A DNA stretch of 64,000 bases from JAWLHK01 sp041690355 [NCBI: bacterium] (lineage in GTDB: Bacteria > J088 > JAWLBW01), in the NCBI GenBank assembly GCA_041690355.1, contig JAWLHK010000007.1:1-64000 (forward strand). The letters run 5' to 3'. The translations under genes and the position numbers were made by a program. The notes beneath the pieces are model-generated. The model was not told where the DNA came from. It saw nothing but the letters and a program-made list of their open reading frames with translations, and ran no database searches. This document shows positions 5,863-62,228 of this stretch, piece after piece (positions within the stretch are counted from its first letter, which is position 1; every line of letters begins with the position of its first letter).

Positions 5863-7341
5863 TCAGAGCACGGTCACGAACCCCGTCTCGTCGGTGATCG
5901 TCACCTTACCCGTCGCGTCGACCGAGACCTGGTAGACGGACTTGCCGCCCGCGTCGTCGTAGACCGTCACGGTGCCCGTGCCCGATCCGTCGGCCGCGAA
6001 CGTGAAGGTCCCTTCTTCGTCCGGGTTCTGGGTCGTGTCCTTGAAATCCTTCTCGTACGCCTGACGCGACGTGCCGTCGGGGTAGTAGGTCATCTCGACG
6101 GTGGCGCTGTCGCCCAGGACGTTATAGACCTCGAGCGTGACCTGGTGCTGCGTAGCCGCTTCGACGACCGTCAGGCGGCCCGTGATGACGGTGTCGTCCC
6201 GATCGGTGTGCGTGAATTCTGCGGTCAGCGTGTTGCCCACGACACGGATGCTCGGAACGTCAAGTTCGGTCGTCTCGCCGTCGCGGAAGGTGATGATGCG
6301 GTGATAGGTACCGTTGCCGGCGTTGCGGCGCCAGATGCCTTCTTCGAACACGGTGTCGATGACATGCGGTTCGGGAAAGGTGGTGGTGACTTCGTACGCG
6401 CCCGACGAGAGGTTCACCGAGCCTTCGCGTTCGAAGCCGTCCCGGCCGGCGGCGGCGATCGAGATGTTCGTGCCGTCCGACTCGACGTGCATCGTGTCGG
6501 CCTTGCCGTCGGCATAGTAGCGGTTTCCGTCGAACGTGCCGATGTCCTTGCCCGTGATGACGGCCACTTCGGTCGTCATCGTCACGTCGCCGGCCGCATG
6601 GGTGATCGTGCGCCGCGCCTCGCCCTGGCTCATGTCCTGGCCGTCGGTCAGCGGGGTCTGCGGAGTCACTTCAGCCGTTACGACGGTGCCGTTGCGCATC
6701 GTCACGACGTGCTCGTAATGAGCGTACTTGCGCGGCTTCGTGGGCTTCTCGAAGTCGCCCCCGAAGTCGACGATCAGCTCGCCGACCACCGATTCGCGCT
6801 CGTCGTTGGCGGGAAAATTGCGCGTGTTGACCACGTGGCTCCAGCCGTCGAGCACGTTGCCGTCGGTCGCGGCGCCGGCATACTCGAGCTCTTCGACATG
6901 CAGCGTGCCGTTGCCGCCGTCCTTATACTGGATCGCGGCGTCGACCTGGTAGTAGATGTAACCGCCGTTGCCGTCGCAGGTATACTTCAGCGTGATCTCG
7001 GCGCTCTTCTCGTCGGCGATGGCCGCGTAATCGTTCTTCGGGAACGTCACGCTGCCGGCGCTCAGGCACAGCTCGCCGAACATCGGCCGCAGCCCGGGGG
7101 CCGCGCTCATGGCCGGGGCCAGGCCGAAGCCGCCGCCGGTTTCGAGGCCCGGCGCCAGCGATTCAATGCCGCCGGCGAGGCCTTTGATCTCCAGAATGCC
7201 GCTCGTCAGATCGCGGGCAAAGACGTTCACGAGCCCCTTCTCGAGGGCGCCCTGATGGCGTTCCAGCGCATCCTGGATCAAATCGCCGCAGCCGGTGACG
7301 CCGGCCAGCAACGCAACGCCAAGTACCATTCCCTTTTTCAC
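5863..7341 (-). CDS. Large beta-rich lipoprotein of unknown function
   Basis: A 492-residue product. The start is a GTG at 7341 with GGGAGG six bases upstream; this gives VKKGMVLGVALLAGVTGC, a textbook lipoprotein signal with the lipidated Cys at position 18. Longer in-frame starts lack a ribosome site. After a short helical segment (ALERHQGALEKGLVNV) the rest is a long run of short repeating strands rich in Thr, Asp and Gly, with recurring phrases such as VTMRNGTVVTAEV, ITFRDGETTEL and MTYYPDGTSRQ, suggesting a stacked-strand (YD- or MORN-like) architecture. I do not recognise a family and no enzyme motif is visible. It is probably anchored to the outer membrane and monocistronic, given its own terminator. 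Confidence 0.7.
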   Translation of the reverse strand: MKKGMVLGVALLAGVTGCGDLIQDALERHQGALEKGLVNVFARDLTSGILEIKGLAGGIESLAPGLETGGGFGLAPAMSAAPGLRPMFGELCLSAGSVTFPKNDYAAIADEKSAEITLKYTCDGNGGYIYYQVDAAIQYKDGGNGTLHVEELEYAGAATDGNVLDGWSHVVNTRNFPANDERESVVGELIVDFGGDFEKPTKPRKYAHYEHVVTMRNGTVVTAEVTPQTPLTDGQDMSQGEARRTITHAAGDVTMTTEVAVITGKDIGTFDGNRYYADGKADTMHVESDGTNISIAAAGRDGFEREGSVNLSSGAYEVTTTFPEPHVIDTVFEEGIWRRNAGNGTYHRIITFRDGETTELDVPSIRVVGNTLTAEFTHTDRDDTVITGRLTVVEAATQHQVTLEVYNVLGDSATVEMTYYPDGTSRQAYEKDFKDTTQNPDEEGTFTFAADGSGTGTVTVYDDAGGKSVYQVSVDATGKVTITDETGFVTVL

Positions 7342-13389: not shown

Positions 13390-14160
13390 TCAGCCGAAGG
13401 GGACGACCTCGACCGGCAGGCCGCGGTCGCCGAAGCGCGCCCGTGCGTCCCCCTCGCGGATACCGATTTCCAGCAGGTCGCCGCTCCCCCAGTAGGCGAT
13501 GGGCTCGCCCGGGGCGGCGTCGGCAAACGTGGTCCCCAGCCTGACCGGGCGAAAGTTGACGCTCACGGCGACTCGTTCGGGCTTGTCGACGATGCGCCGG
13601 TTGATGTTCGTGATCAGGTTGCCGAAGCGGTCGACGTGAATGACCTCCCCCTTGATCAGGTTCCCGATCCGGCCGGCCATCGGCAGGGCGATGCGCACCG
13701 GATCGGAAATCGATTCGGCGACGGCGTCGAGCGGCCGGCCTGTGGCCAGGTGGGCGGCTACCGGGGCGAAGACGTCGCGCCCGTGAAAGGTGGGCGACGC
13801 CCCCTCGAATTGCTCTGCGCGAATGGCGAACCACCGCGTGTCGGCCGGGAGAACCGCTGAAAGGATGCCGTTGTCGGCGCCGACGTGCACCTGCCCGCGA
13901 CCGAGCGCCACCAGGCCGCGCCGTTTCGATCCGACCCCGGGATCGACGACCAGAAGATGCACGGCGCCCTCGGGAAACCGGCCGGCAGCGTTGCGGAGCG
14001 CCAGCACGGCCGCCGTCCGATCCCAGGGCGGGATATCGTGCGCGATGTCGACGAGCGGGATGCTCGGCGCCCGGGCACTGAGCACCCCTTTCATCGCGCC
14101 GACATAGCCGTCTGCGGTTCCGAAATCGGTGGTCAGGGTAATGAGCGGCGCGTTGGGCAC
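13390..14160 (-). CDS. S-adenosyl-L-methionine hydrolase (adenosine-forming), DUF62 family
   Basis: A 256-residue protein of the DUF62 (fluorinase/SAM hydroxide adenosyltransferase) family. The N-terminal ITLTTDFGTADGYVGAMKG carries the Asp that binds the ribose; VVDPGVGSKRR and ADNGILS complete the SAM pocket. The C-terminal beta-barrel has VDRFGNLITNI. These enzymes split SAM to adenosine and methionine; the fluorinase-specific insertion is absent. Start is a GTG at 14160 followed by PNAPLITLTTDF. It stands alone 62 bases upstream of the conserved start of the MetF-type gene region, and a role in SAM/methionine balance next to MTHFR is plausible. Confidence 0.85.
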   Translation of the reverse strand: MPNAPLITLTTDFGTADGYVGAMKGVLSARAPSIPLVDIAHDIPPWDRTAAVLALRNAAGRFPEGAVHLLVVDPGVGSKRRGLVALGRGQVHVGADNGILSAVLPADTRWFAIRAEQFEGASPTFHGRDVFAPVAAHLATGRPLDAVAESISDPVRIALPMAGRIGNLIKGEVIHVDRFGNLITNINRRIVDKPERVAVSVNFRPVRLGTTFADAAPGEPIAYWGSGDLLEIGIREGDARARFGDRGLPVEVVPFG

Positions 14161-37533: not shown

Positions 37534-37937
37534 AAATTGACGATTTACGATTGACGATTGACGATTTTCAGAAAAAAAACCAGTCTTGTCCAGAATCGGT
37601 TCAGCGCGTGACCGTTCGGCCTGAGGAGCCGGGCCTTGGAAATCGAGGTTCAATTCGGACGGCATCGTCTCGCAAGGTTGTCGGCCCCGGCGTCTCGAAG
37701 GCTCAGAGCCGCATGAACACCGGGATCCAGAGCTTCAGAACACGCAATTGCTGAGGTGGCGAGCAAGATCCTGCAGACATTCTGACCCCTCGACAGGCGG
37801 GGCGACAGGATCAGCGGAATCTCAGAATTCCAGCTGCCATCTGTTCCCTTTCCTGGACAGCACTGTAAAAAACCAGGAAAGAACCAAGGCGGCGCTTGCC
37901 AGGGTCCGCTCAATCGTCAATTGTCAATCGTCAATCG
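37534..37937. repeat. 400-bp non-coding insert flanked by inverted heptamer arrays
   Basis: Left array 37534-37568: five units of the GATTGAC/GATTTAC theme. Right array 37911-37937: GTCAATC/GTCAATT, the inverse theme. Between them 340 bases of lower GC DNA hold two small spurious ORFs, one of which begins inside the left array, and no protein I can support. The right array starts on the stop codon of the epimerase gene (37931). The left array is followed by an A8 run and ACC, as is the array at 58.03 kb. The two flanks can pair along about 25 bases, so a transcript would form a long stem. Confidence 0.7.
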
Positions 37938-38926
37938 AGGTAGCGGTTTTCGCGGAGCCAGGCGTAGGCGCGCATGATGGCGTCATCGATGGGGCGGGGC
38001 GCGAAACCCAGCTCGCGCGTCGCCTTCGCGTGGCTGAAGTGGAAGTAGTAGCGGCTCGCGCGCGCGAGCGTCAGGTCGAGACGCGGCTCGCGGCCGCTCA
38101 TGCGCCCCGACCACTGGCCTCCGAGCCCCCCCATCCAGACAAAGGGATAGGGGATGCGCGTGCGCGGCGCCCGTGCCCCGACGAGCGAGGCGATACGCTC
38201 CAGCACCGCCTGGTGCGTCAGGTTCTCGCGGGTGAGGATATACCGCTCTCCCCGGCGCCCCTTTTCCCAGGCGAGAATCTGCCCGGCACAGACGTCCTCG
38301 ACGTCGACGTAGGAACTGCCGCCGCGCACGAAGCCGGGAACCTTGCCGCGCACGACCTCGACGATCATCCGCCCGATGTTCGGCCGCACATCCCAGCTGC
38401 CGAACATGGAGCCGGGGTTCACGATGACGACGTCCTGCCCGGCGGCCGCGGCCTCGCGGCAGACGTCTTCGGCCGCGCGCTTGGTAATGGCGTAGTGAAA
38501 GGGAAACCGATCGAGGTTGAACGGCGTCTCTTCGTCGGCCGTCACGCCGGGCTCGAGCGAGCCGGCCACCGCCGATACCGTGCTGGTGTGCACCACGCGC
38601 GGCACACCCGCCTTGAAAGCGGCGACGAGCACGTTGCGAGTTCCCTCGACATTGGTGCGCCACATCTCGCCCGGATCCGGAACGAACATGCGCGTATCGC
38701 CCGCGACGTGAAAGACGACGTCGCAGGCGCGCATGGGCCCCTCGAGGCTGGCGGGATCGCGTACGTCGCCCTGAGTGTACTCGACGTCGAGCCCTTCGAG
38801 CGGAACCCGCCGGCTGCCGGGACGCACGAACACGCGCACCCGGACGCCGCGCGCCAGCAGCGCGCGCACGAGGTTGGCGCCGACGAATCCGGTGGCGCCG
38901 GTGACGAAAGCCCGGGGTGCAGCCAT
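37931..38926 (-). CDS. NAD-dependent epimerase/dehydratase (hopanoid-associated HpnA-like SDR)
   Basis: A 331-residue extended SDR. NAD(P) motif TGATGFVGANL at the N-terminus; catalytic YxxxK as YAITKRAAE; NPGSMFG after it. Family neighbours are dihydroflavonol reductases, GDP/UDP-sugar epimerases and the hopanoid-associated HpnA. No hopanoid or sugar partner gene is adjacent, so the substrate is open. It begins just three bases after the HIT gene stop (TGATC), suggesting coupling. Its TGA stop is the first half of the heptamer array at 37911-37937. Confidence 0.78.
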   Translation of the reverse strand: MAAPRAFVTGATGFVGANLVRALLARGVRVRVFVRPGSRRVPLEGLDVEYTQGDVRDPASLEGPMRACDVVFHVAGDTRMFVPDPGEMWRTNVEGTRNVLVAAFKAGVPRVVHTSTVSAVAGSLEPGVTADEETPFNLDRFPFHYAITKRAAEDVCREAAAAGQDVVIVNPGSMFGSWDVRPNIGRMIVEVVRGKVPGFVRGGSSYVDVEDVCAGQILAWEKGRRGERYILTRENLTHQAVLERIASLVGARAPRTRIPYPFVWMGGLGGQWSGRMSGREPRLDLTLARASRYYFHFSHAKATRELGFAPRPIDDAIMRAYAWLRENRYLD

Positions 38927-53323: not shown

Positions 53324-54280
53324 TCAGGCGGCCCGCCGCCTGCCGGTGGCGGGCCGTTCGCCGCCATGCTCGACGTACCATTGATAAGTCTCGGCGATCC
53401 CTTCGCGAAGACCGATGCGCGGCCGCCATCCCAGGGCACCGAGGCGGCCGACGTGAAGCAGCTTTCGCGGCGTGCCGTCCGGCTTACCGGCGTCCCAGAA
53501 GATGGGACCGCGGTGGCCGGCGATCTCCTGCACGACCAGGGCCAGATCGCGAATGGCGATGTCTTCTCCGGTCCCCAGGTTGATGAGGTCGTTAGCGTCT
53601 GCGTGCAGCATGAGATGGACGCATGCGTCGGCCGCGTCGTCGGCGTGCAGAAACTCCCGGCGCGGCGCGCCGCTCCCCCAGAGGATCACCGGACGATCGG
53701 GGAGCGCTTCGTGGAACTTTCGGATGAGAGCCGGAAGTACATGGCTCTCTTCCGGGTCGAAGTTGTCGCCCGGACCGTACAGATTCGTCGGCATGGCGCA
53801 CAGGAACTTCGTCCCCAGCTGCCGGTTGTAGGCGCGGCACATCGTAATCCCGGCAATCTTGGCGACCGCATAGGGTTCGTTCGTCGACTCGATCCGGCCC
53901 GTGAGCAGATACTCCTCGCGGATCGGCTGGGCGCAATCGCGCGGATAGATGCAGGACGAACCGAGAAACAGGAGCTTGTGCACCCCGAAGGCCGCCGCCG
54001 CGTCGATGACGTTGGTCTGAATCTGAAGATTATCGCGGATGAATTCCGCCGGCCGCGTCTGGTTGGCCCAGATGCCGCCGACGCGGGCGGCCGCGAGAAA
54101 GACGTATTCGGGCTTGTCCCGCTGAAAGAGCCGGTCGACCTTGGCGCGGTCGCGCAGATCGACTTCGGCCGAAGACCGCAGGATGAGATTCCGGTAGCCC
54201 AGCGCCGTGAGGCGCCGCGCGATGGCAGAGCCGACCAGGCCCCGATGCCCGGCCACGAAGATCCGGCTGTTGAACTGCAT
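53324..54280 (-). CDS. fcl: GDP-L-fucose synthase (copy 1)
   Basis: A 318-residue extended SDR that epimerises and reduces GDP-4-keto-6-deoxy-mannose to GDP-L-fucose. NADP motif [14 protein letters not shown]; catalytic YAVAKIAG (YxxxK); [10 protein letters not shown] and LYGPGDNFD are family-specific. It lies 80 bases from manC copy 1. It has a second copy at 57.1 kb with near-identical motifs. Confidence 0.93.
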   Translation of the reverse strand: MQFNSRIFVAGHRGLVGSAIARRLTALGYRNLILRSSAEVDLRDRAKVDRLFQRDKPEYVFLAAARVGGIWANQTRPAEFIRDNLQIQTNVIDAAAAFGVHKLLFLGSSCIYPRDCAQPIREEYLLTGRIESTNEPYAVAKIAGITMCRAYNRQLGTKFLCAMPTNLYGPGDNFDPEESHVLPALIRKFHEALPDRPVILWGSGAPRREFLHADDAADACVHLMLHADANDLINLGTGEDIAIRDLALVVQEIAGHRGPIFWDAGKPDGTPRKLLHVGRLGALGWRPRIGLREGIAETYQWYVEHGGERPATGRRRAA

Positions 54281-54395
54281 GCCTCCCCCTTCTCTGCCCT
54301 CAGGCTAGCACGGGGCGAGGGGCGCGCCGGCAAGGCGCACCCGGAGGGAGGGAGAACAAACTGGAGCCCCCTTGACAACGGGGGCCGGCGCGCCA

Positions 54396-54423
54396 TTCCT
54401 GATTCTTGATTCTTGATTCCTGA
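54396..54423. repeat. Heptamer array (GATTCTT/GATTCCT units)
   Basis: Three consecutive units in the gap between fcl copy 1 and manC copy 2. The same theme in inverse orientation (GAATCAG) occurs at 59728-59753, so the pair brackets a 5.3-kb block. Confidence 0.75.
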
Positions 54424-55880: not shown

Positions 55881-57092
55881 TTACCCCTGACCAAGCGTGG
55901 CCGGGGGAACTGCGTCCGACGCGCGCCGCGCCGCGAGCCGAATTCCACCCGGCCGCCCGAGCCAGAAGACTGAAAGCCCGAACCACGCCCACGTAAGGAT
56001 GTCGTCGAGGCGCAAAGGGGACCACGCCGAAAACCAGAAGATTCCGAGGAGCATGGTCAGGCCGAGGCGGGCCGCCGTGGAATCGGCGGCGGCGCGCAGG
56101 AGCCAGGGGAAGAAGAAGAGGAGAATTCCGAGGCGGTAGTCGAAATGATTCCCCAGCACAAAGACCCCCGCGAACAGCCCGGCGCCCATCATGGCGAGAA
56201 CGCCGTCGAGCGGGCGCTCTGCCGGGGGGACGAAGAACGACGTCCGCATGCGGCGGGCCAGCGCCAGGGCGACGACGGCGACAATGGCGGCAAGCACTGC
56301 GGAAACTGCGGAAAGATACGCGGCGTCGACGCGAAGGATCTCGAGGAGCCGGGCGGGGAGCACGCGCGAGCCGAACGAGAACCAGGTCGCCCGGGGAACG
56401 GCGGCGCCGATCAGGCGGATATCTTCCAGATTGACGACGACGTAGACGCCGAAGGCCAGCGCCAGAACCATGCCCAGCCGGAGGGCCCATTCGCGCGGAA
56501 TCTGCCGCAGGGCGCTCGCGCCGAAGATGGGAAACAGCTTCAGGGCCCCGGCCGTGAAGAGAATGGCCGTTCCGGTTCCGTAGCGGGAACGCGAGAGGGC
56601 GCGTCCGGCCAGAATCAGCACGGTGAACATGAGGATATCGATATTCCCCCGTTCGACCCCGAGCATGATGGGCGGCGAAAGCAGCGCCGCCCCGAACAGA
56701 AGCCCCTGCCACCAGAGGAGCGGACCGGCCATCCACAGGACCGCCGCAAGAAACAGCGCCCCGAGGACGACGCCGACGGGGTTCGTGTGCGCGACCGTGA
56801 GCCCGGCACCCTGCCAGATGGAAATCCAGACGCGTGGATAGTTCATGCGCCGCTTCCACGGATCGCAGGGGTTCGTGCGCAGGACGTCGAGCCCGCGGGC
56901 GGCACACTCGGCTCCCGTGCTGATGTTCCGCAGATCGGCAAATGCGGGAGAGCGGGTCGGCACGCCCATGCGGTCCCAGGCGCGCAGCTCCGGACGCAGC
57001 ACGTGCCCGTAAAGCACGATGCCGAAGTAGATCAGCAGCATCGCCAGGGCAATCAGGCGGCCATCCAGGAATTTACGATTGACGATTGACAA
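55881..57092 (-). CDS. GT87/DUF2029-like polyprenol-dependent glycosyltransferase, membrane protein
   Basis: A 403-residue membrane protein with about ten hydrophobic segments, beginning with an N-terminal helix (LIALAMLLIYFGIVLYGHVL), and a conserved acidic/polar loop region in the first external loop (ECAARGLDVL, CDPWKRRMNYPRVWISIW). It resembles the GT87/DUF2029 C-fold mannosyltransferases, which use polyprenyl-phosphate sugars. The start is unusual: the best full-length start is a TTG at 57092 inside a heptamer array, so the array supplies the first codons; the next in-frame ATG (57041) would cut the first helix. It follows fcl copy 2, whose stop lies in the same array. Confidence 0.65.
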   Translation of the reverse strand: MSIVNRKFLDGRLIALAMLLIYFGIVLYGHVLRPELRAWDRMGVPTRSPAFADLRNISTGAECAARGLDVLRTNPCDPWKRRMNYPRVWISIWQGAGLTVAHTNPVGVVLGALFLAAVLWMAGPLLWWQGLLFGAALLSPPIMLGVERGNIDILMFTVLILAGRALSRSRYGTGTAILFTAGALKLFPIFGASALRQIPREWALRLGMVLALAFGVYVVVNLEDIRLIGAAVPRATWFSFGSRVLPARLLEILRVDAAYLSAVSAVLAAIVAVVALALARRMRTSFFVPPAERPLDGVLAMMGAGLFAGVFVLGNHFDYRLGILLFFFPWLLRAAADSTAARLGLTMLLGIFWFSAWSPLRLDDILTWAWFGLSVFWLGRPGGIRLAARRASDAVPPATLGQG

Positions 57093-57104
57093 TTGACGAT
57101 TTAC
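57071..57104. repeat. Heptamer array (GATTGAC theme) bridging fcl2 and the GT87 gene
   Basis: About five units of ATTTACG/ATTGACG type. It contains the fcl2 stop (TAA, 57101-57103) and the TTG start of the GT87 gene. The heptamers match those at 18.8 and 37.5 kb. Confidence 0.8.
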
Positions 57105-58027
57105 GGGACGGACGTCTCATGCTGCAGGAACCATTCGTAGGCCGAGCGGATGCCTTCGCGCAGCGGAATGCGGTGTTTCCAGCCGAGGGCGTGGAGGCGA
57201 TCGACGTTGAGCAGCTTGCGCGGCGTGCCGTCGGGCTTGCTCGTATCCCAGACGAGCTCGCCCCTGTGCCCGACGACCTCCTGCACGAGCTCGGCCAGTT
57301 CGCGGATGGTCACGTCTTCACCGGTGCCGATGTTGACGATGTCCGACCCCTCGTAGGTCTCCATGAGGTGCACGCAGGCGTCGGCCAGGTCGTCGGCGTG
57401 CAGGAATTCCCGCCGCGGCGCGCCGGTGCCCCACACGGTCACCGGCCGGTCGGGAAGCGCCTCGTGAAACTTGCGTATCAGGGCCGGGAGCACGTGGCTC
57501 GTCTGCAGATCGAAATTGTCATTCGGCCCGTAGAGGTTCGTCGGCATGACGCTCAGGAAGCGCGTCCCATGCTGCCGATTGTACGACTGGCACATGACGA
57601 TGCCTGCGATTTTCGCTACGGCATACGGCTCGTTGGTCTTCTCGAGCGGACCCGTCAACAGATATTCCTCGCGGATGGGCTGGGGGCAGTCGCGCGGATA
57701 GATGCAGGACGATCCGAGGAACAGAAGCTTCTGCACGCCGTGTCGCCACGCCGCATCGATGATGTTCGTCTCGATCAGCAGATTGTCGCGGATGAAGTCT
57801 GCCGGGTAGGTGTTGTTCGCCAGAATTCCGCCGACCTTCGCGGCGGCCACGTAGACCTGCTCCGGCTTCTCGGCGGCAAAGAAGGCCTCGACGGCGGCGG
57901 CGTCGCGCAGATCCAGTTCCGCCGACGTCCGCAGCAGCAGCCGGTCATGGCCGCGCGCCATCAGATTGCGCACGAGCGCCGAGCCGACGAGTCCGCGGTG
58001 GCCGGCAATAAAGATCCGAGAAGTCAT
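57101..58027 (-). CDS. fcl: GDP-L-fucose synthase (copy 2)
   Basis: A 308-residue GDP-fucose synthase: [15 protein letters not shown] (NADP), [10 protein letters not shown] (YxxxK), [23 protein letters not shown]. It works after Gmd, encoded 560 bases upstream, to make GDP-L-fucose. The ATG at 58027 falls at the very end of a heptamer array that forms one terminus of the small S23 cassette; it has no Shine-Dalgarno, only the repeated GACTTAC units, and its stop lies in another array. Expression must depend on readthrough or a promoter in the cassette. Confidence 0.92.
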
Positions 58028-58094
58028 CAGTCGTAAGTCGTAAGTCGTAAGTCGGTAAAAAAACCGGGGGAATATTCATATTGCTGCTTTTTCG

Positions 58095-58124
58095 TTGACA
58101 TTTCCACGGACCCTGCACTATAAG
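58095..58124 (+). promoter_or_regulatory. Promoter of the four-helix-bundle gene
   Basis: TTGACA (58095-58100), 18-base spacer, TATAAG (58119-58124). Transcription should begin at or just before the ATG at 58132, so the mRNA is nearly leaderless. Confidence 0.65.
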
Positions 58125-58131
58125 AGGCGGT

Positions 58132-58536
58132 ATGACAACCATCCGCCGTTTCGAAGATAGCCTCGCATGGCAGAAGGCAAACGCTCTCTCCGCGTTTGTC
58201 CACCGTCTCTCGGATAGAAAGGCATGGGGGCGCGACTGGTCCCTTCGAGAGCAGATTCGGTCGGCTGCCGGGTCCGTACCGGGAAACATCGCCGAGGGCT
58301 TCAACAGCGGAGGCGACCGTCACTTCCGACATTACCTCCGCATCGCAAGGGCATCGGCGGGTGAAGTTCGTGCTCACGCATACACCGCGCACCATATCGG
58401 GTACCTGTCCGATGAGGAACTGAGTTCAATCTGCAGCGCCAGCCACGAGTGCGAACGCCTGATCACCGGATTCATCAATTACCTGACGCGTTGCCTGGAA
58501 CAACTGGAAACCGACGCAGAGGAAAGCAGTTCATGA
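58132..58536 (+). CDS. Four-helix-bundle protein (23S rRNA intervening-sequence protein/Avd-like family)
   Basis: A 134-residue helical protein with the family motif VPGNIAEGF (NIAEGF at 52-57) followed by RHYLRIARASAGEVRAHAY. Members were first found inside 23S rRNA intervening sequences and share the fold of the Avd subunit of diversity-generating retroelements; the function of free-standing members is unknown. It is on the opposite strand to the surrounding sugar genes, has its own promoter, a GAGG four bases before the ATG, and sits inside heptamer inverted repeats, which points to a self-contained inserted unit. Confidence 0.85.
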   Translation: MTTIRRFEDSLAWQKANALSAFVHRLSDRKAWGRDWSLREQIRSAAGSVPGNIAEGFNSGGDRHFRHYLRIARASAGEVRAHAYTAHHIGYLSDEELSSICSASHECERLITGFINYLTRCLEQLETDAEESSS

Positions 58537-58586
58537 TCACCGGTTCACAATGAGCAACCTGTCACTGAAGACTGAAGACTGGCGAC

Positions 58587-59663
58587 TTACGACTGAGCCC
58601 GATGACCCGCCGCTATCACTTGTTCTTCCTTGGCCCACTTGATATCCTCGCGAACCATCTCGGCGCATAGCTCCTCCACGCTGGTCTTCGCCTCCCAGCC
58701 GAGCTTCTCCTTCGCCTTCGAAGGATCGCCGAGCAGCGTCTCGACTTCGGTCGGGCGGAAGTAGCGCGGATCCACTTCGACGAGCACCTTGCCGGTCTTT
58801 GCGTCGCGCCCCTTCTCCTCCACACCCTTCCCTTCCCATTCCAACTGGATATCGACGTGCTCGAAGGACGCCTCGACGAAGCGGCGGACAGAGATCTGGC
58901 GGCCGGTGGCCAGCACGAAATCCTCGGGTTCCGGCAGCTGCAGCATCCGCCACATGCCGTCGACGTAATCACGGGCGTGCCCCCAGTCGCGCAGGCTGTC
59001 GAGATTTCCCAGATACAGCTTGCCCTGCATCCCGAGATGGATGCGGGCGACGGCGCGCGTAATCTTGCGCGTGACGAAGGTCTCGCCGCGCACGGGAGAT
59101 TCGTGGTTGAACAGTATCCCGTTGCAGGCGTACATGCCGTAGGCTTCGCGGTAGTTCACCGTGATCCAGTAGGCATACAGCTTCGCCGCCGCATACGGAC
59201 TGCGCGGATAAAACGGCGTCGTCTCCTTCTGCGGCGTCTCCTGCACCTTGCCGAAGAGCTCCGACGTGGATGCCTGATAGAACCGGGTCTTCTGCTCGAG
59301 GTTCAGGATGCGGATCGCTTCGAGAAGCCGCAGGGTGCCCACGGCGTCGGCGTTGGCCGTGTATTCCGCCGTCTCGAAGCTGACCTGCACGTGGCTCTGG
59401 GCGGCCAGGTTGTAGACCTCGTCGGGCTGCACTTCCTGCACGATCCGGATGAGGTTCGTGCTGTCGGTCATGTCGCCGTAGTGCAGGAAGAAGCGCGGGT
59501 CGTCGATATGCGGATCCACGTAGAGGTGGTCGATGCGCCCGGTGTTGAACGACGACGATCGCCGCTTCACCCCGTGCACGACGTACCCCTTCTTCAGCAG
59601 CAGTTCCGCCAGATAGGAACCGTCCTGCCCGGTCACGCCGGTGATCAATGCTACTTTTGCCAT
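58587..59663 (-). CDS. gmd: GDP-mannose 4,6-dehydratase
   Basis: A 358-residue SDR that converts GDP-mannose to GDP-4-keto-6-deoxy-mannose. NADP motif [14 protein letters not shown]; catalytic [24 protein letters not shown] and [17 protein letters not shown] are diagnostic. Its last residues (AQS and the TAA stop) are encoded by the right-hand array of the S23 cassette, so the original C-terminus may have been altered. Only one gmd serves both fcl copies. A GTGACGA-type array lies just upstream of its ATG. Confidence 0.95.
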
Positions 59664-59670
59664 TACTTGA

Positions 59671-59753
59671 AGTGACGAGTTACGAGTGACGAGTGACGAA
59701 TAACTTCTAAATCACTTGTTTCTCAAGAATTAAGAATCAGGAATCAGGAATCA
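59671..59753. repeat. Two adjacent heptamer arrays between gmd and the third acyl-CoA dehydrogenase
   Basis: Array A (59671-59701) has GTGACGA/GTTACGA units; array B (59728-59753) has AGGAATC units, starts on the dehydrogenase stop codon, and is the inverse of the array at 54.4 kb. Array A recurs in direct orientation at 60999-61030 on the other side of the dehydrogenase gene. Confidence 0.8.
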
Positions 59754-60932
59754 AACTGCGGCCGGCTGCTTCTTCTTGCCCGGCAGAATGCCCATGAGCT
59801 TGCAGATGATGCCGAGCATGATCTCGTCGGCGCCGCCGCCGATGGAGAGGAGGCGCGAATCGCGCATCGCGCGGGAGACCTGGCTCTCCCACATGTAGCC
59901 CATGCCGCCCCAGTACTGCAGGCAGGAATCGGCCACCTCACGGGTCAGCTTTCCGGCTTTCAGCTTGGCCATCGAGGCCAGCTTGACGACCTCCATGTCG
60001 TCCGGATTATCCACATAGCGCTCGACCGTCGTGTACACCAGGGCGCGCAGGGCCTCGACTTCGGTCTGCAGCTCGGCCAGCTTGAAGTGCACGACCTGAT
60101 TGTCGATGATCGGCTGGCCGAACGTCTTGCGCTCCCGCGTGTACTCGATCGTTCCCTGAATCATGCGATCCATGGAGCGCAGCGAGCTGGCGGCGCCGAA
60201 CAGGCGCTCTTCCTGAAACTGGCGCATCTGCATGATGAAGCCCATGCCTTCTTCGCCGATGCGGTACCGCTGCGGAACGCGGACGTTGTCGAAAAAAATC
60301 TGCGCGGTGTCTGACGACCACATGCCGAGCTTGTGCAGCTTCTGGGCCCGCGAGACGCCGGGCGTGTTCATCGGAACGACGATCATCGTCTTGTTGATGT
60401 GCGGCTTGTCGTCGGAGGTGTTGGCGAGCAGGCAAATCCAGTCGGACTGCATGCCGTTGGTGATCCACATCTTGGTGCCGTTGATGACGTAGTCGTCGCC
60501 GTCCTTCACGGCGGTGGTCTTCAGGCCGGCGACGTCGGACCCGGCGCCCGGCTCACTGACGCCGATGGAGCAGACCATGTCACCGGCGATGGTCGGCGCC
60601 AGGAACTCGCGGCGCAGCTCGTCGGAGCCGAACCGGGCCAGCGCGGGGGTCGCCATGTCGGTCTGCACGCCGATGGCCATCGGCACGCCGCCGCAGTTGC
60701 AGTTGCCGAGTTCTTCGGCGAACGCGACGGCATAGGAGTAATCGAGCCCCATCCCCCCGAACTCGGTCGGCTTGCTGATCCCGAGCAGCCCCAGGTTCCC
60801 CATCTTCTTGAACAGCTGGTGGGCGGGAAAAATGCGATCCTCTTCCCACTGGTCGACATAAGGATTGATTTCCTGTTCGACGAACTTGCGGACGGTCTGG
60901 CGCAGATTCTCGTGTTCGGCCGTGAAAAGCAT
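59751..60932 (-). CDS. Acyl-CoA dehydrogenase
   Basis: A 393-residue acyl-CoA dehydrogenase, third in the window. IGVSEPGAGSDVAGLKTTA and INGTKMWITNG make the FAD/substrate site; the C-terminal YWGGMGYMWES and SIGGGADEIMLGI are family-typical, with the Glu in GGGADEIM as probable base. It lies inside the polysaccharide region with no metabolic neighbour and is bracketed by direct copies of a GTGACGA heptamer array, so it may have been brought in as a unit. ATG 60932 has a GGAGTG-like site upstream. Confidence 0.87.
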   Translation of the reverse strand: MLFTAEHENLRQTVRKFVEQEINPYVDQWEEDRIFPAHQLFKKMGNLGLLGISKPTEFGGMGLDYSYAVAFAEELGNCNCGGVPMAIGVQTDMATPALARFGSDELRREFLAPTIAGDMVCSIGVSEPGAGSDVAGLKTTAVKDGDDYVINGTKMWITNGMQSDWICLLANTSDDKPHINKTMIVVPMNTPGVSRAQKLHKLGMWSSDTAQIFFDNVRVPQRYRIGEEGMGFIMQMRQFQEERLFGAASSLRSMDRMIQGTIEYTRERKTFGQPIIDNQVVHFKLAELQTEVEALRALVYTTVERYVDNPDDMEVVKLASMAKLKAGKLTREVADSCLQYWGGMGYMWESQVSRAMRDSRLLSIGGGADEIMLGIICKLMGILPGKKKQPAAV

Positions 60933-60998
60933 GGAGCACTCCGGGAGGGGATTTCGAGTATCCGTTGATTCTCCCGTATGGAGCGTCCATTTTCAATG

Positions 60999-61030
60999 AA
61001 GTGACGAGTGGCGAGTGACGAGTGACGAAT
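60999..61030. repeat. Heptamer array (GTGACGA theme)
   Basis: Four units of GTGACGA/GTGGCGA upstream of the acyl-CoA dehydrogenase, the same theme and orientation as 59671-59701. Confidence 0.8.
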
Positions 61031-61050
61031 CAAGACCGGAAAAAAGACAC

Positions 61051-61082
61051 AAAAAAGGCCGGCACGAGAGTTCGCGCCGGCC
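61051..61082 (-). terminator. Rho-independent terminator on the minus strand with no gene before it
   Basis: Seven-base perfect stem GGCCGGC/GCCGGCC with a 12-base loop, then six T and a second T run on the minus strand. No protein gene ends here, so it most likely ends a small RNA. Confidence 0.65.
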
Positions 61083-61177
61083 GCTCGACAGCCCCATGAG
61101 GGAGGTAAGGCGGGCCATCGGTTCTGAGGGTACCCGCTCGGCAGGTTTTCCGTCGATACCCAAAAATGGCAAACTTC
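61051..61177 (-). ncRNA. Candidate structured small RNA or leader RNA
   Basis: About 127 bases lie on the minus strand between the array at 61178 and the terminator. They contain a GGGTA/TACCC hairpin over 61124-61160 (enclosing ACGGAAAACC), a GCGGG/CCCGC pairing, and end in a classical terminator upstream of the acyl-CoA dehydrogenase gene. The pieces ACGGAAAACC and ACCGATGG recall cyclic-di-GMP (GEMM) riboswitches but the order of elements does not fit. I cannot assign a family. It could be an sRNA or a terminating leader of the dehydrogenase gene. Confidence 0.35.
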
Positions 61178-61295
61178 GGGGGTCGAGAGTCGAGAGTCCA
61201 GAGTCGAGGGTCCGAGGGTCCGAGGGTTTACCGAAGCGCCTGGGGTCACATGTCGCCGACTCATGACGCATGAGACGCTCGACTCTTGACTCGTC
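61178..61295. repeat. Inverted heptamer arrays upstream of the GT2 gene
   Basis: Left array 61178-61226 (CGAGAGT, CCAGAGT, CGAGGGT units, about six) and a short right array 61274-61295 (GACTCTT, GACTCGT) of inverse theme, separated by about 47 bases with no ORF. Together with 60933-61177 this makes a 396-base gap between genes with no protein I can support. Confidence 0.7.
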
Positions 61296-61328
61296 TACGG
61301 GGTATCGTAATGGGGTCTGGACGCACCC

Positions 61329-62228
61329 ATGCAGACCAAGCCCACCGTTTCCGTCATCATCCCCGTCTTTAACGATTATCCGGCGCTCGCCCGCTGCCTG
61401 GCCGCGCTCGAGGCGCAGTCCTACCCGCGCGAGCGCTTCGACATTTTCGTAATTGACAACGGTTCAACGGAACGCGCTCCCCTCCCGGCAATGTCGAAGG
61501 CGACGTTGCTCGAGGAGCCGCGCCCGGGTTCCTTCCGCGCACGGAATGTGGGCATTGCCGCCAGCAAGGGCGAAGTGCTCGCGTTCATCGACTCTGACTG
61601 CCTGCCCGCGCGGGACTGGCTCGAAAACGGGGTCGCCGCCCTGCTCCACTGCAAAGGGCCCGCCTACGTGGCCGGTCGGGTCGTCACGGTGCCCGCCGAT
61701 CCGGAGCATCCGACGCCGACCGAGCTGTACGAAATGTCGACCGCCTTCCCTTTCGACAAACACCTCAAGGATTCGCACTACGGCGGCTCGGGCAACCTGT
61801 TCGTCTGGCGCAGCATCATCGAGGACGTCGGTCCGTTCGACGCAGAGATGCAATCGGGAGGCGACGCGGAATTCGGCCGCCGCGTGTTTCTCGCCGGCTA
61901 CCAGCAGTTCTTTGCAGGCGACGCCGTCGTAAGTCACCCCGCCCGCCGCACGCTGGAAGAACGGCTCATCAAAGCCTACCGCGTGCACGCCGGGGCCCTC
62001 GACCTGATGCGCAAGGGGAATCCGGGGGCGATCGCCATGTACGGAAGCGTGACGAAGCCCTTTCTCCCCCCCGTGCGCAAGCTCCTCAACATCGCCCGCA
62101 CGGACAAGATCCGCGGTCCGGGGGCCAAGGCCAAGGCCATGTCAGTGCAGCTCGCCCTGCACTACGGCCTCGCGTGGGAACACCTGCGCACCACGAAGCT
62201 CGGCAAGCCGCCGCGCGGCGTGCGCTGA
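61329..62228 (+). CDS. Family 2 glycosyltransferase
   Basis: A 299-residue GT-A fold glycosyltransferase: VSVIIPVFNDYPALARCL, VIDNGSTERAP, FIDSDCLPARDW (DxD-type metal site) and GGSGNLFVWRSIIEDVGPFD. No transmembrane segment, so it probably works at the inner face of the cytoplasmic membrane on a polysaccharide repeat. It is convergent with wecB. Its 5' region holds an inverted heptamer pair and no clear Shine-Dalgarno. Confidence 0.87.
   Translation: MQTKPTVSVIIPVFNDYPALARCLAALEAQSYPRERFDIFVIDNGSTERAPLPAMSKATLLEEPRPGSFRARNVGIAASKGEVLAFIDSDCLPARDWLENGVAALLHCKGPAYVAGRVVTVPADPEHPTPTELYEMSTAFPFDKHLKDSHYGGSGNLFVWRSIIEDVGPFDAEMQSGGDAEFGRRVFLAGYQQFFAGDAVVSHPARRTLEERLIKAYRVHAGALDLMRKGNPGAIAMYGSVTKPFLPPVRKLLNIARTDKIRGPGAKAKAMSVQLALHYGLAWEHLRTTKLGKPPRGVR

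Follow-up and report, generated by a model that had tools for sequence, protein, structure and literature searches.

The element considered here, the 570 bp S23 cassette, is situated between the genes gmd and fcl2 in a 64,000-nucleotide stretch of bacterial DNA (contig JAWLHK010000007.1), and this whole stretch is referred to as the window. The cassette has a single gene, which encodes a four-helix-bundle protein of the S23 family, and the gene is enclosed by inverted arms built of tandem 7 nt repeats, or heptamers (Table 1). The arms pair over 27 nt (58027-58053 with 58570-58596) with 85% complementarity, and the outermost 14 nt match perfectly. Both arrays have a period of 7, the right one being the weaker. 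The ATG of fcl2 (58025-58027) and the TAA of gmd (58587-58589) are within the arms, at a distance of 559 nt from each other. An earlier note on this DNA had described the perfect 14 bp outer repeats, the heptamer arrays at both ends and their positions over the two codons, a near-consensus promoter for a gene opposed to its operon, and the lack of a transposase; all of these features are found.

The promoter-like sequence consists of the hexamers TTGACA (58095-58100) and TATAAG (58119-58124) with an 18 nt spacer, and matches the consensus at 11 of 12 positions. An automated promoter scan called no promoter at the cassette, because it accepts only a T as the last base of the second hexamer. In the RNA fold predicted for either strand, the two arms pair with each other (z -2.77 and -1.59). 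At the protein level, 2GSC is the sole PDB match at E <= 0.01, and the Xanthomonas campestris S23p structure is described as a homopentamer (PMC4990558). No transposase-sized open reading frame (ORF) was seen in the 570 bp, and a Pfam scan of the S23 ORF returned PF05635 alone. There is no match to an rRNA family around the cassette (56500-61500), which places the element between protein-coding genes and outside 23S rRNA.

The earlier note also proposed that gmd and fcl2 had been parted by an insertion. Of 25 gmd loci compared in Bacteroidota, six have fcl after gmd, with junctions that range from overlapping to ∼46 nt, as against 559 nt in the window; fcl is on the opposite side of gmd in 13, and there is no fcl nearby in the other six. 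The longer spacing in the window is consistent with an insertion, by analogy with these six loci, which are from lineages not shown to be close.

Table 1. Positions of the cassette, its parts and neighbours, and of a second cassette-like feature in the window
Feature	Position	Strand	Basis
Whole S23 element (cassette), 570 bp	58027..58596	+ (S23 opposed to gmd/fcl2)	Inverted arms, S23 gene, neighbour distances
Left heptamer arm, AAGTCGT-type units, contains fcl2 start codon	58021..58054	+	Period-7 array, 4.9 copies
Right heptamer arm, weaker array, contains gmd stop codon	58564..58596	-	Period 7, 4.7 copies, 80% matches
Promoter-like TTGACA-18-TATAAG, 7 nt upstream of S23 ATG	58095..58124	+	Consensus match only
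S23/IVP four-helix-bundle gene, 134 aa	58132..58536	+	PF05635, E 3.1e-24 (over cut-off); TIGR02436 'four helix bundle protein'; PDB 2GSC, E 6.6e-8
Neighbour fcl2, GDP-L-fucose synthase	57101..58027	-	NCBIfam Fcl model, 502.1 bits (cut-off 500)
Neighbour gmd, GDP-mannose 4,6-dehydratase	58587..59663	-	Passes TIGR01472
Second cassette-like feature, inverted ATTGACG arrays, no detectable S23 gene	37536..37937		26 nt arms, 92% complementary, 343-348 nt enclosed

Heptamer arms at S23 genes in other genomes

S23 genes are abundant in Bacteroidota. Matches were found in 90 of 118 genomes, with 87 of the 118 over the family cut-off and up to 16 matches per genome. A contig search with the window S23 protein returned a single relative, from a Flavobacteriales genome that has 11 S23 genes, some of them flanked by inverted heptamer arrays; no relative was found in the viral contigs and phages searched. 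For comparison of flanks, 80 Bacteroidota regions were assembled, 11 being places in one genome (G001) and 69 hand-picked from the best S23 matches listed. Genome sampling is uneven, in that some genomes contribute several regions and many none.

Enrichment of inverted heptamer arrays at other S23 genes, suggested in the earlier note, is apparent by several measures. Strict heptamer arrays on both sides are present at 12 of 94 S23 rows and at none of 447 control ORFs, and an inverted-repeat score of at least 15 is reached by 50 of the 94 rows as against three of the 447 controls (the 94 rows include one second-strand call of a single locus, L046). A test that allows gaps in the arms was applied to 107 distinct S23 loci, which come from 108 rows and are counted without the duplicate (L120 and L121 overlap). 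At a score of at least 32, arms are present at 65 of 107 loci, compared with one of 150 mispaired flanks taken from different loci; at a score of at least 28, the figures are 75 of 107 and three of 150. Of these 65 strong loci, 52 are from Bacteroidota (out of 92), 12 are from plasmids (out of 14) and one is that of the window. Flank width alters the score, and L175, for example, scores 17 with narrower flanks and 40 with wider ones.

All 14 plasmid loci, which represent 14 of 19 plasmid records and come from cyanobacteria (12), Riemerella and Azospirillum, reach a score of at least 28. Among control coding sequences on two of those plasmids, one of 80 does so, and this is an IS4 transposase gene, i.e., part of a real transposon. 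Three of the cyanobacterial plasmid S23 genes (L166, L174, L167) are within CRISPR-Cas operons, two in the order cas6-S23-cas4 and one in the order cas10-S23-cmr3. On the Azospirillum lipoferum 4B plasmid AZO_p2 (L172), an S23-like stretch with inverted heptamer arms is found at 1501-1773, where no gene is listed in the PLSDB table, a table that is incomplete by design.

The arms of the 65 strong loci have a marked periodicity. Identity is 0.63-0.64 at lag 7 and 0.61 at lag 14, and 0.23-0.37 at other lags, with 0.33 for shuffled arms. The heptamer unit is specific to each copy: left and right arms agree within a locus, but not between loci. There is nevertheless a tendency on the S23-sense left arm towards NAGNNNT, with an information content of 2.03 bits as against 1.44-1.57 bits for permuted positions, and this arm contains little C (204 of 2177 bases). 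A pattern first drawn by eye from the window arrays, ANTNNNG, is not what the 65 arms yield. The notion that the 7 nt units provide stop codons in three frames was also considered and was not adopted; left arms close 1.60 frames and right arms 1.49, with 1.53 and 1.02, respectively, after shuffling. Elements have a median length of 480 bp, and the 5-95% range is 415-719 bp.

Placement with respect to neighbouring genes was determined for 53 non-plasmid loci that score at least 32, of which 52 have neighbours on both sides, with ORFs called mechanically. The two neighbours are co-directional at 46 of 52 elements, compared with 700 of 961 background gene pairs. S23 has the same direction as the operon in 37 of these 46, and the window copy is among the nine that are opposed. 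The outer arm edge is a median of 3 nt from the neighbouring stop codon (15 nt or less in 42 of 54 cases) and a median of 15 nt from the start codon (15 nt or less in 26 of 50). Arrays that cover codons of both neighbours, as in the window, are the usual state of such copies.

Empty and occupied junctions

The earlier note called for a search for empty sites, and these are present at all five Bacteroidota junctions that were read at the sequence level. Four of the junctions, labelled casB, cas1, cas2 and cas3, were followed in eight genomes of one genus, and the fifth is groES-groEL in a second genus. The casB junction is between an FAD-dependent oxidoreductase gene and a gene of 100 aa with no Pfam match at the cut used; presumably these are FixC- and FixX-like. 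Five genomes have the element at casB. The flanking genes abut or overlap in two others (G066 and G120), and in G070 there is an 87 nt remnant that is similar to the start of S23.

The remaining three junctions are in one operon, with thiolase, hexapeptide-protein and enoyl-CoA hydratase genes, which we take to be of the phenylacetate type; it has three S23 elements at three junctions. At cas1, seven genomes are occupied and G070 is empty. At cas2, six are occupied, and G066 and G120 are empty with a stop-to-start spacing of 3 nt. At cas3, G039, G055 and G066 are occupied and the other five are empty. Different S23 genes with different arms are found at one and the same junction among sister genomes, both at cas1 and at cas2. 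Among the genomes empty at cas3, a solo heptamer array is present in G101, G119 and G120, and the G027 version is 21 nt shorter. In L091, a stretch at 13590-13632, between the cas3 left arm and S23, recurs elsewhere in the genus over 43-58 nt with 86-95% identity (G039:C22, G027:C9, G055:C1), and is either another small dispersed repeat or a part of other elements.

At groES-groEL, four of 31 genomes are occupied, and the flanking genes are -4 to 106 nt apart in the other 27 as against ∼510 nt in the query. The junction was read in 20 of the 31 genomes; four are occupied and 16 are short, and the S23 profile matches exactly those four. Of the 16 short junctions, three contain a period-7 array with a score that 0.5% of shuffled sequences attain. 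Beside this locus (L080, ∼5980-6090) is a sequence with many short matches elsewhere in that genus, an abundant small dispersed repeat. Two further genera were searched. In that of G012 (three genomes), the flanks are found in G012 only, and in that of G109 (28 genomes), 19 have matches with mixed gap sizes, which were not read at the sequence level.

Two cases bear on movement, and both support the view in the earlier note that the cassette is a candidate mobile unit. In G101 and G070, the cas2 elements share 92.1% identity along a 420 nt stretch, which extends from close to the beginning of S23 to the end of the right arm; for 150 nt windows outside this stretch, identity falls to 67-84%. 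Synonymous divergence (dS) of the S23 gene is 0.33; silent-site differences of six neighbouring genes are 0.73-0.84, which represents saturation. By these comparisons, the cas2 case appears to be a transfer of the element without its flanks. In G001, a 727 nt stretch with the whole cassette is present at two sites with 74.7% identity, and the surrounding regions of 12-16 kb have otherwise no homology. This duplication is an old event.

The S23 gene is under purifying selection. The ratio of non-synonymous to synonymous substitution (dN/dS) is 0.03-0.17 in 13 measurable pairs. The set consisted of 14 pairs, one of which is saturated, and three more pairs were left out, as no ATG-started S23 ORF was found in G066 at cas1.

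Other heptamer arrays in the window

Tandem arrays in the window are predominantly heptameric. With periods of 4-15 considered, there are 10 arrays of period 7, six of the multiple 14, and zero to two of each remaining period, whereas ten simulations of first-order sequences gave 0.0-0.1 arrays. One pair of inverted ATTGACG arrays forms the second cassette-like feature of Table 1. Its right arm and the stop codon of a gene at 37931-38926 overlap, and no S23 remnant was found inside it at any useful score. It is possibly a decayed or non-autonomous relative of the S23 cassette. Strict inverted heptamer pairs 100-900 bp apart number eight in 1.34 Mb, a sample that includes the window and consists of regions picked around S23 genes; an S23 gene lies within seven of the eight, and the remaining pair is this second feature. 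The ATTGACG arrays, at 37536, 37910 and 57071, have no AG and are a poor fit to NAGNNNT.

Solo heptamer arrays are also found at gene junctions near the gmd/fcl cluster (54395-54423, 57071-57105, 59671-59699, 59725-59753 and 61000-61028). Their units are ATTCYTG, ATTGACG, AGTGACG and AATCAGG, with a GC content of 0.31-0.59 compared with 0.67 for the window. At 61182-61292, a GAGTCGA-type array is opposite a shorter inverted array (61274-61292), ∼61 nt apart, and these form a small gene-less heptamer hairpin. A 318 aa ORF near fcl2 (53324-54280) looks by eye like a second GDP-L-fucose-synthase-like gene.

Related systems and possible explanations

The closest known structures are the intervening sequences of 23S rRNA. 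The 23S insert of Coxiella burnetii has a 28 bp terminal stem, an S23p ORF and tandem GACAGAT heptamers upstream of the ORF; the copy number of the heptamer depends on the strain, and RNase III cuts at the first repeat (PMC4990558). Judged by position, these heptamers would be at least partly within the stem. The function and origin of 23S inserts are called unclear in the same source. The elements described here and the intervening sequences share an S23 ORF of ∼115-135 codons, a length of ∼430-570 bp, a terminal stem of ∼28 bp and tandem heptamers by the 5′ end of the ORF. They differ in that the present element is free-standing between protein-coding genes instead of in a 23S rRNA helix and has inverted heptamer arrays at both ends. 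The window copy in addition has its own promoter-like sequence, and excision by RNase III, reported for the 23S inserts, may apply here by analogy. Despite the similar build, its location outside rRNA sets the cassette apart from the rRNA intervening sequence family.

Heptamer repeat arrays of cyanobacteria and other bacteria include those known as STRR. The window cassette has tandem 7 nt repeats in intergenic DNA, as do arrays of the STRR type. Its arms resemble TAACTGA repeats, which are heptamer arrays of the same phyla, in the 7 nt intergenic units, the frequent location beside start codons and copy numbers that change in 7 nt steps; those arrays are, however, described as gene-less direct repeats, with one inverted repeat only in the genome concerned (PMC4679880). 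They are said to have no evident mechanism of transmission, and the main text mentions neither S23 nor intervening sequences (PMC4679880). The P6b stem of the Nostoc tRNA-Leu intron is also a stem-loop of complementary 7 nt repeats, of classes TDNGATT or NNTGAGT, one of which can be replaced by another, but it belongs to a group I intron and has no S23 gene (PMC4476775). Small size, intergenic location and inverted ends are shared with insertion sequences (IS), miniature inverted-repeat transposable elements (MITEs) and REPINs. IS encode a transposase, and MITEs and REPINs have no conserved gene; the cassette differs from all of these in its one conserved non-transposase gene and its copy-specific end sequences. 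Among the open PubMed Central papers listed in literature searches, as judged from titles and opening abstracts, none was found that links free-standing S23 genes to heptamer ends.

We propose, with a probability of about 0.8, that the cassette belongs to a small and widespread type of mobile element, which is related to the 23S rRNA intervening sequences that carry S23 but stands free between cistrons. The arms would close a long stem in RNA, possibly in transcripts from either strand, and RNase III could cut this stem as it is reported to do in 23S inserts. An insert trimmed from the operon mRNA in this way would be of little cost to the host. Because the protein is conserved and the ends are hairpins, it may be guessed that S23 binds the hairpin, either as RNA or as single-stranded DNA, and aids insertion at intercistronic sites. 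The enzyme for cutting and joining would be supplied by the host or by another element. A solo heptamer array at a junction of this kind may have been left behind by such an element or be a short derivative of one.

Several observations weigh against this proposal or narrow it. Because most of the S23 loci were taken from the top-scoring members of the family, the enrichment applies to strong members, and 32 of the 107 loci have no arms at a score of at least 28. Inspection by eye of the empty casB and cas1-cas3 sites revealed no target-site duplication. The occurrence of several copies at one place across related genomes indicates that movement is rare. In the cas2 case, the shared stretch begins at segment position 45, and the left arm of G101 is unlike that of G070, which resembles that of G119; homologous recombination over a short tract could have carried this stretch. 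The S23p of Coxiella is argued to be probably not made and to be decaying (PMC4990558).

In a second explanation, S23 is a host gene of the ordinary kind, the inverted arrays form a regulatory hairpin with a role in mRNA stability, insulation or autoregulation, and presence and absence are the outcome of gene loss and homologous recombination. Purifying selection, the retention of copies at one place in related genomes and the orientation of S23 along the operon in 37 of 46 cases agree with this; the G070 remnant shows that loss occurs, and the cas2 exchange could be recombination. It is difficult to reconcile with sister genomes that have different S23 genes and arms at one junction (cas1, cas2), with a groES-groEL spacing that is short and clean in most relatives, with insertions in many unrelated operons, those of CRISPR among them, and with one cassette at two non-homologous sites in G001. 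An ordinary host gene is considered unlikely. It is very improbable that the arrays are slippage products that gather at gene junctions and that the link to S23 comes from chance or ascertainment. Solo arrays are indeed common at junctions, both in the window and in three of 16 empty groES-groEL sites, and the 21 nt length change at cas3 fits slippage. But control genes of the same regions lack such pairs (none of 447 with arrays on both sides, one of 80 on plasmids), each arm resembles its partner at the locus and not the arms of other loci, and seven of eight strict inverted pairs enclose S23, albeit in regions chosen around S23 genes.

A variant of the mobile element proposal names the enzyme: a reverse transcriptase, or a transposase of the Y1/IS200 type acting on the hairpin ends, would move the element in trans. 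S23 is kin to the Avd protein of diversity-generating retroelements, which might suggest a reverse transcriptase, and hairpin ends with a target preference resemble those of IS200/IS605 and REP elements. The domain Y1_Tnp is present in 83 of 118 genomes and RVT_1 in 51 of 118. However, PF00078 has no match in the S23-rich genomes G001 (11 S23 genes), G005 (10), G027 (13), G030 (9) and G036 (15), and PF01797 is absent from G030 (one contig of 2.59 of ∼2.6 Mb), G043 (8) and G002 (6). As each domain is missing from some S23-rich genomes, neither is clearly needed, and the genome counts do not support the idea that S23 depends on an RVT_1 or Y1_Tnp domain in its own genome. The enzyme could, however, have been lost after old insertions took place, and some of the genomes may be incomplete. 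This variant is considered doubtful.

The mobile element proposal can be extended, although tentatively and at less than even odds. S23 genes with heptamer hairpins may be a self-contained mobile class specialized in stop/start junctions of operons, and the source of many of the heptamer arrays of cyanobacteria, Bacteroidota and other phyla. The 23S inserts would then be copies that landed in rRNA, and S23, together with the hairpin RNA or single-stranded DNA, would steer or perform insertion independently of any classical transposase or reverse transcriptase. Should S23 genes prove to be mobile and heptamer-ended, three separate questions, namely what S23 does, how rRNA intervening sequences originated and where many heptamer repeats come from, would become a single testable problem, and there may exist an unrecognized way of inserting DNA between the genes of operons.

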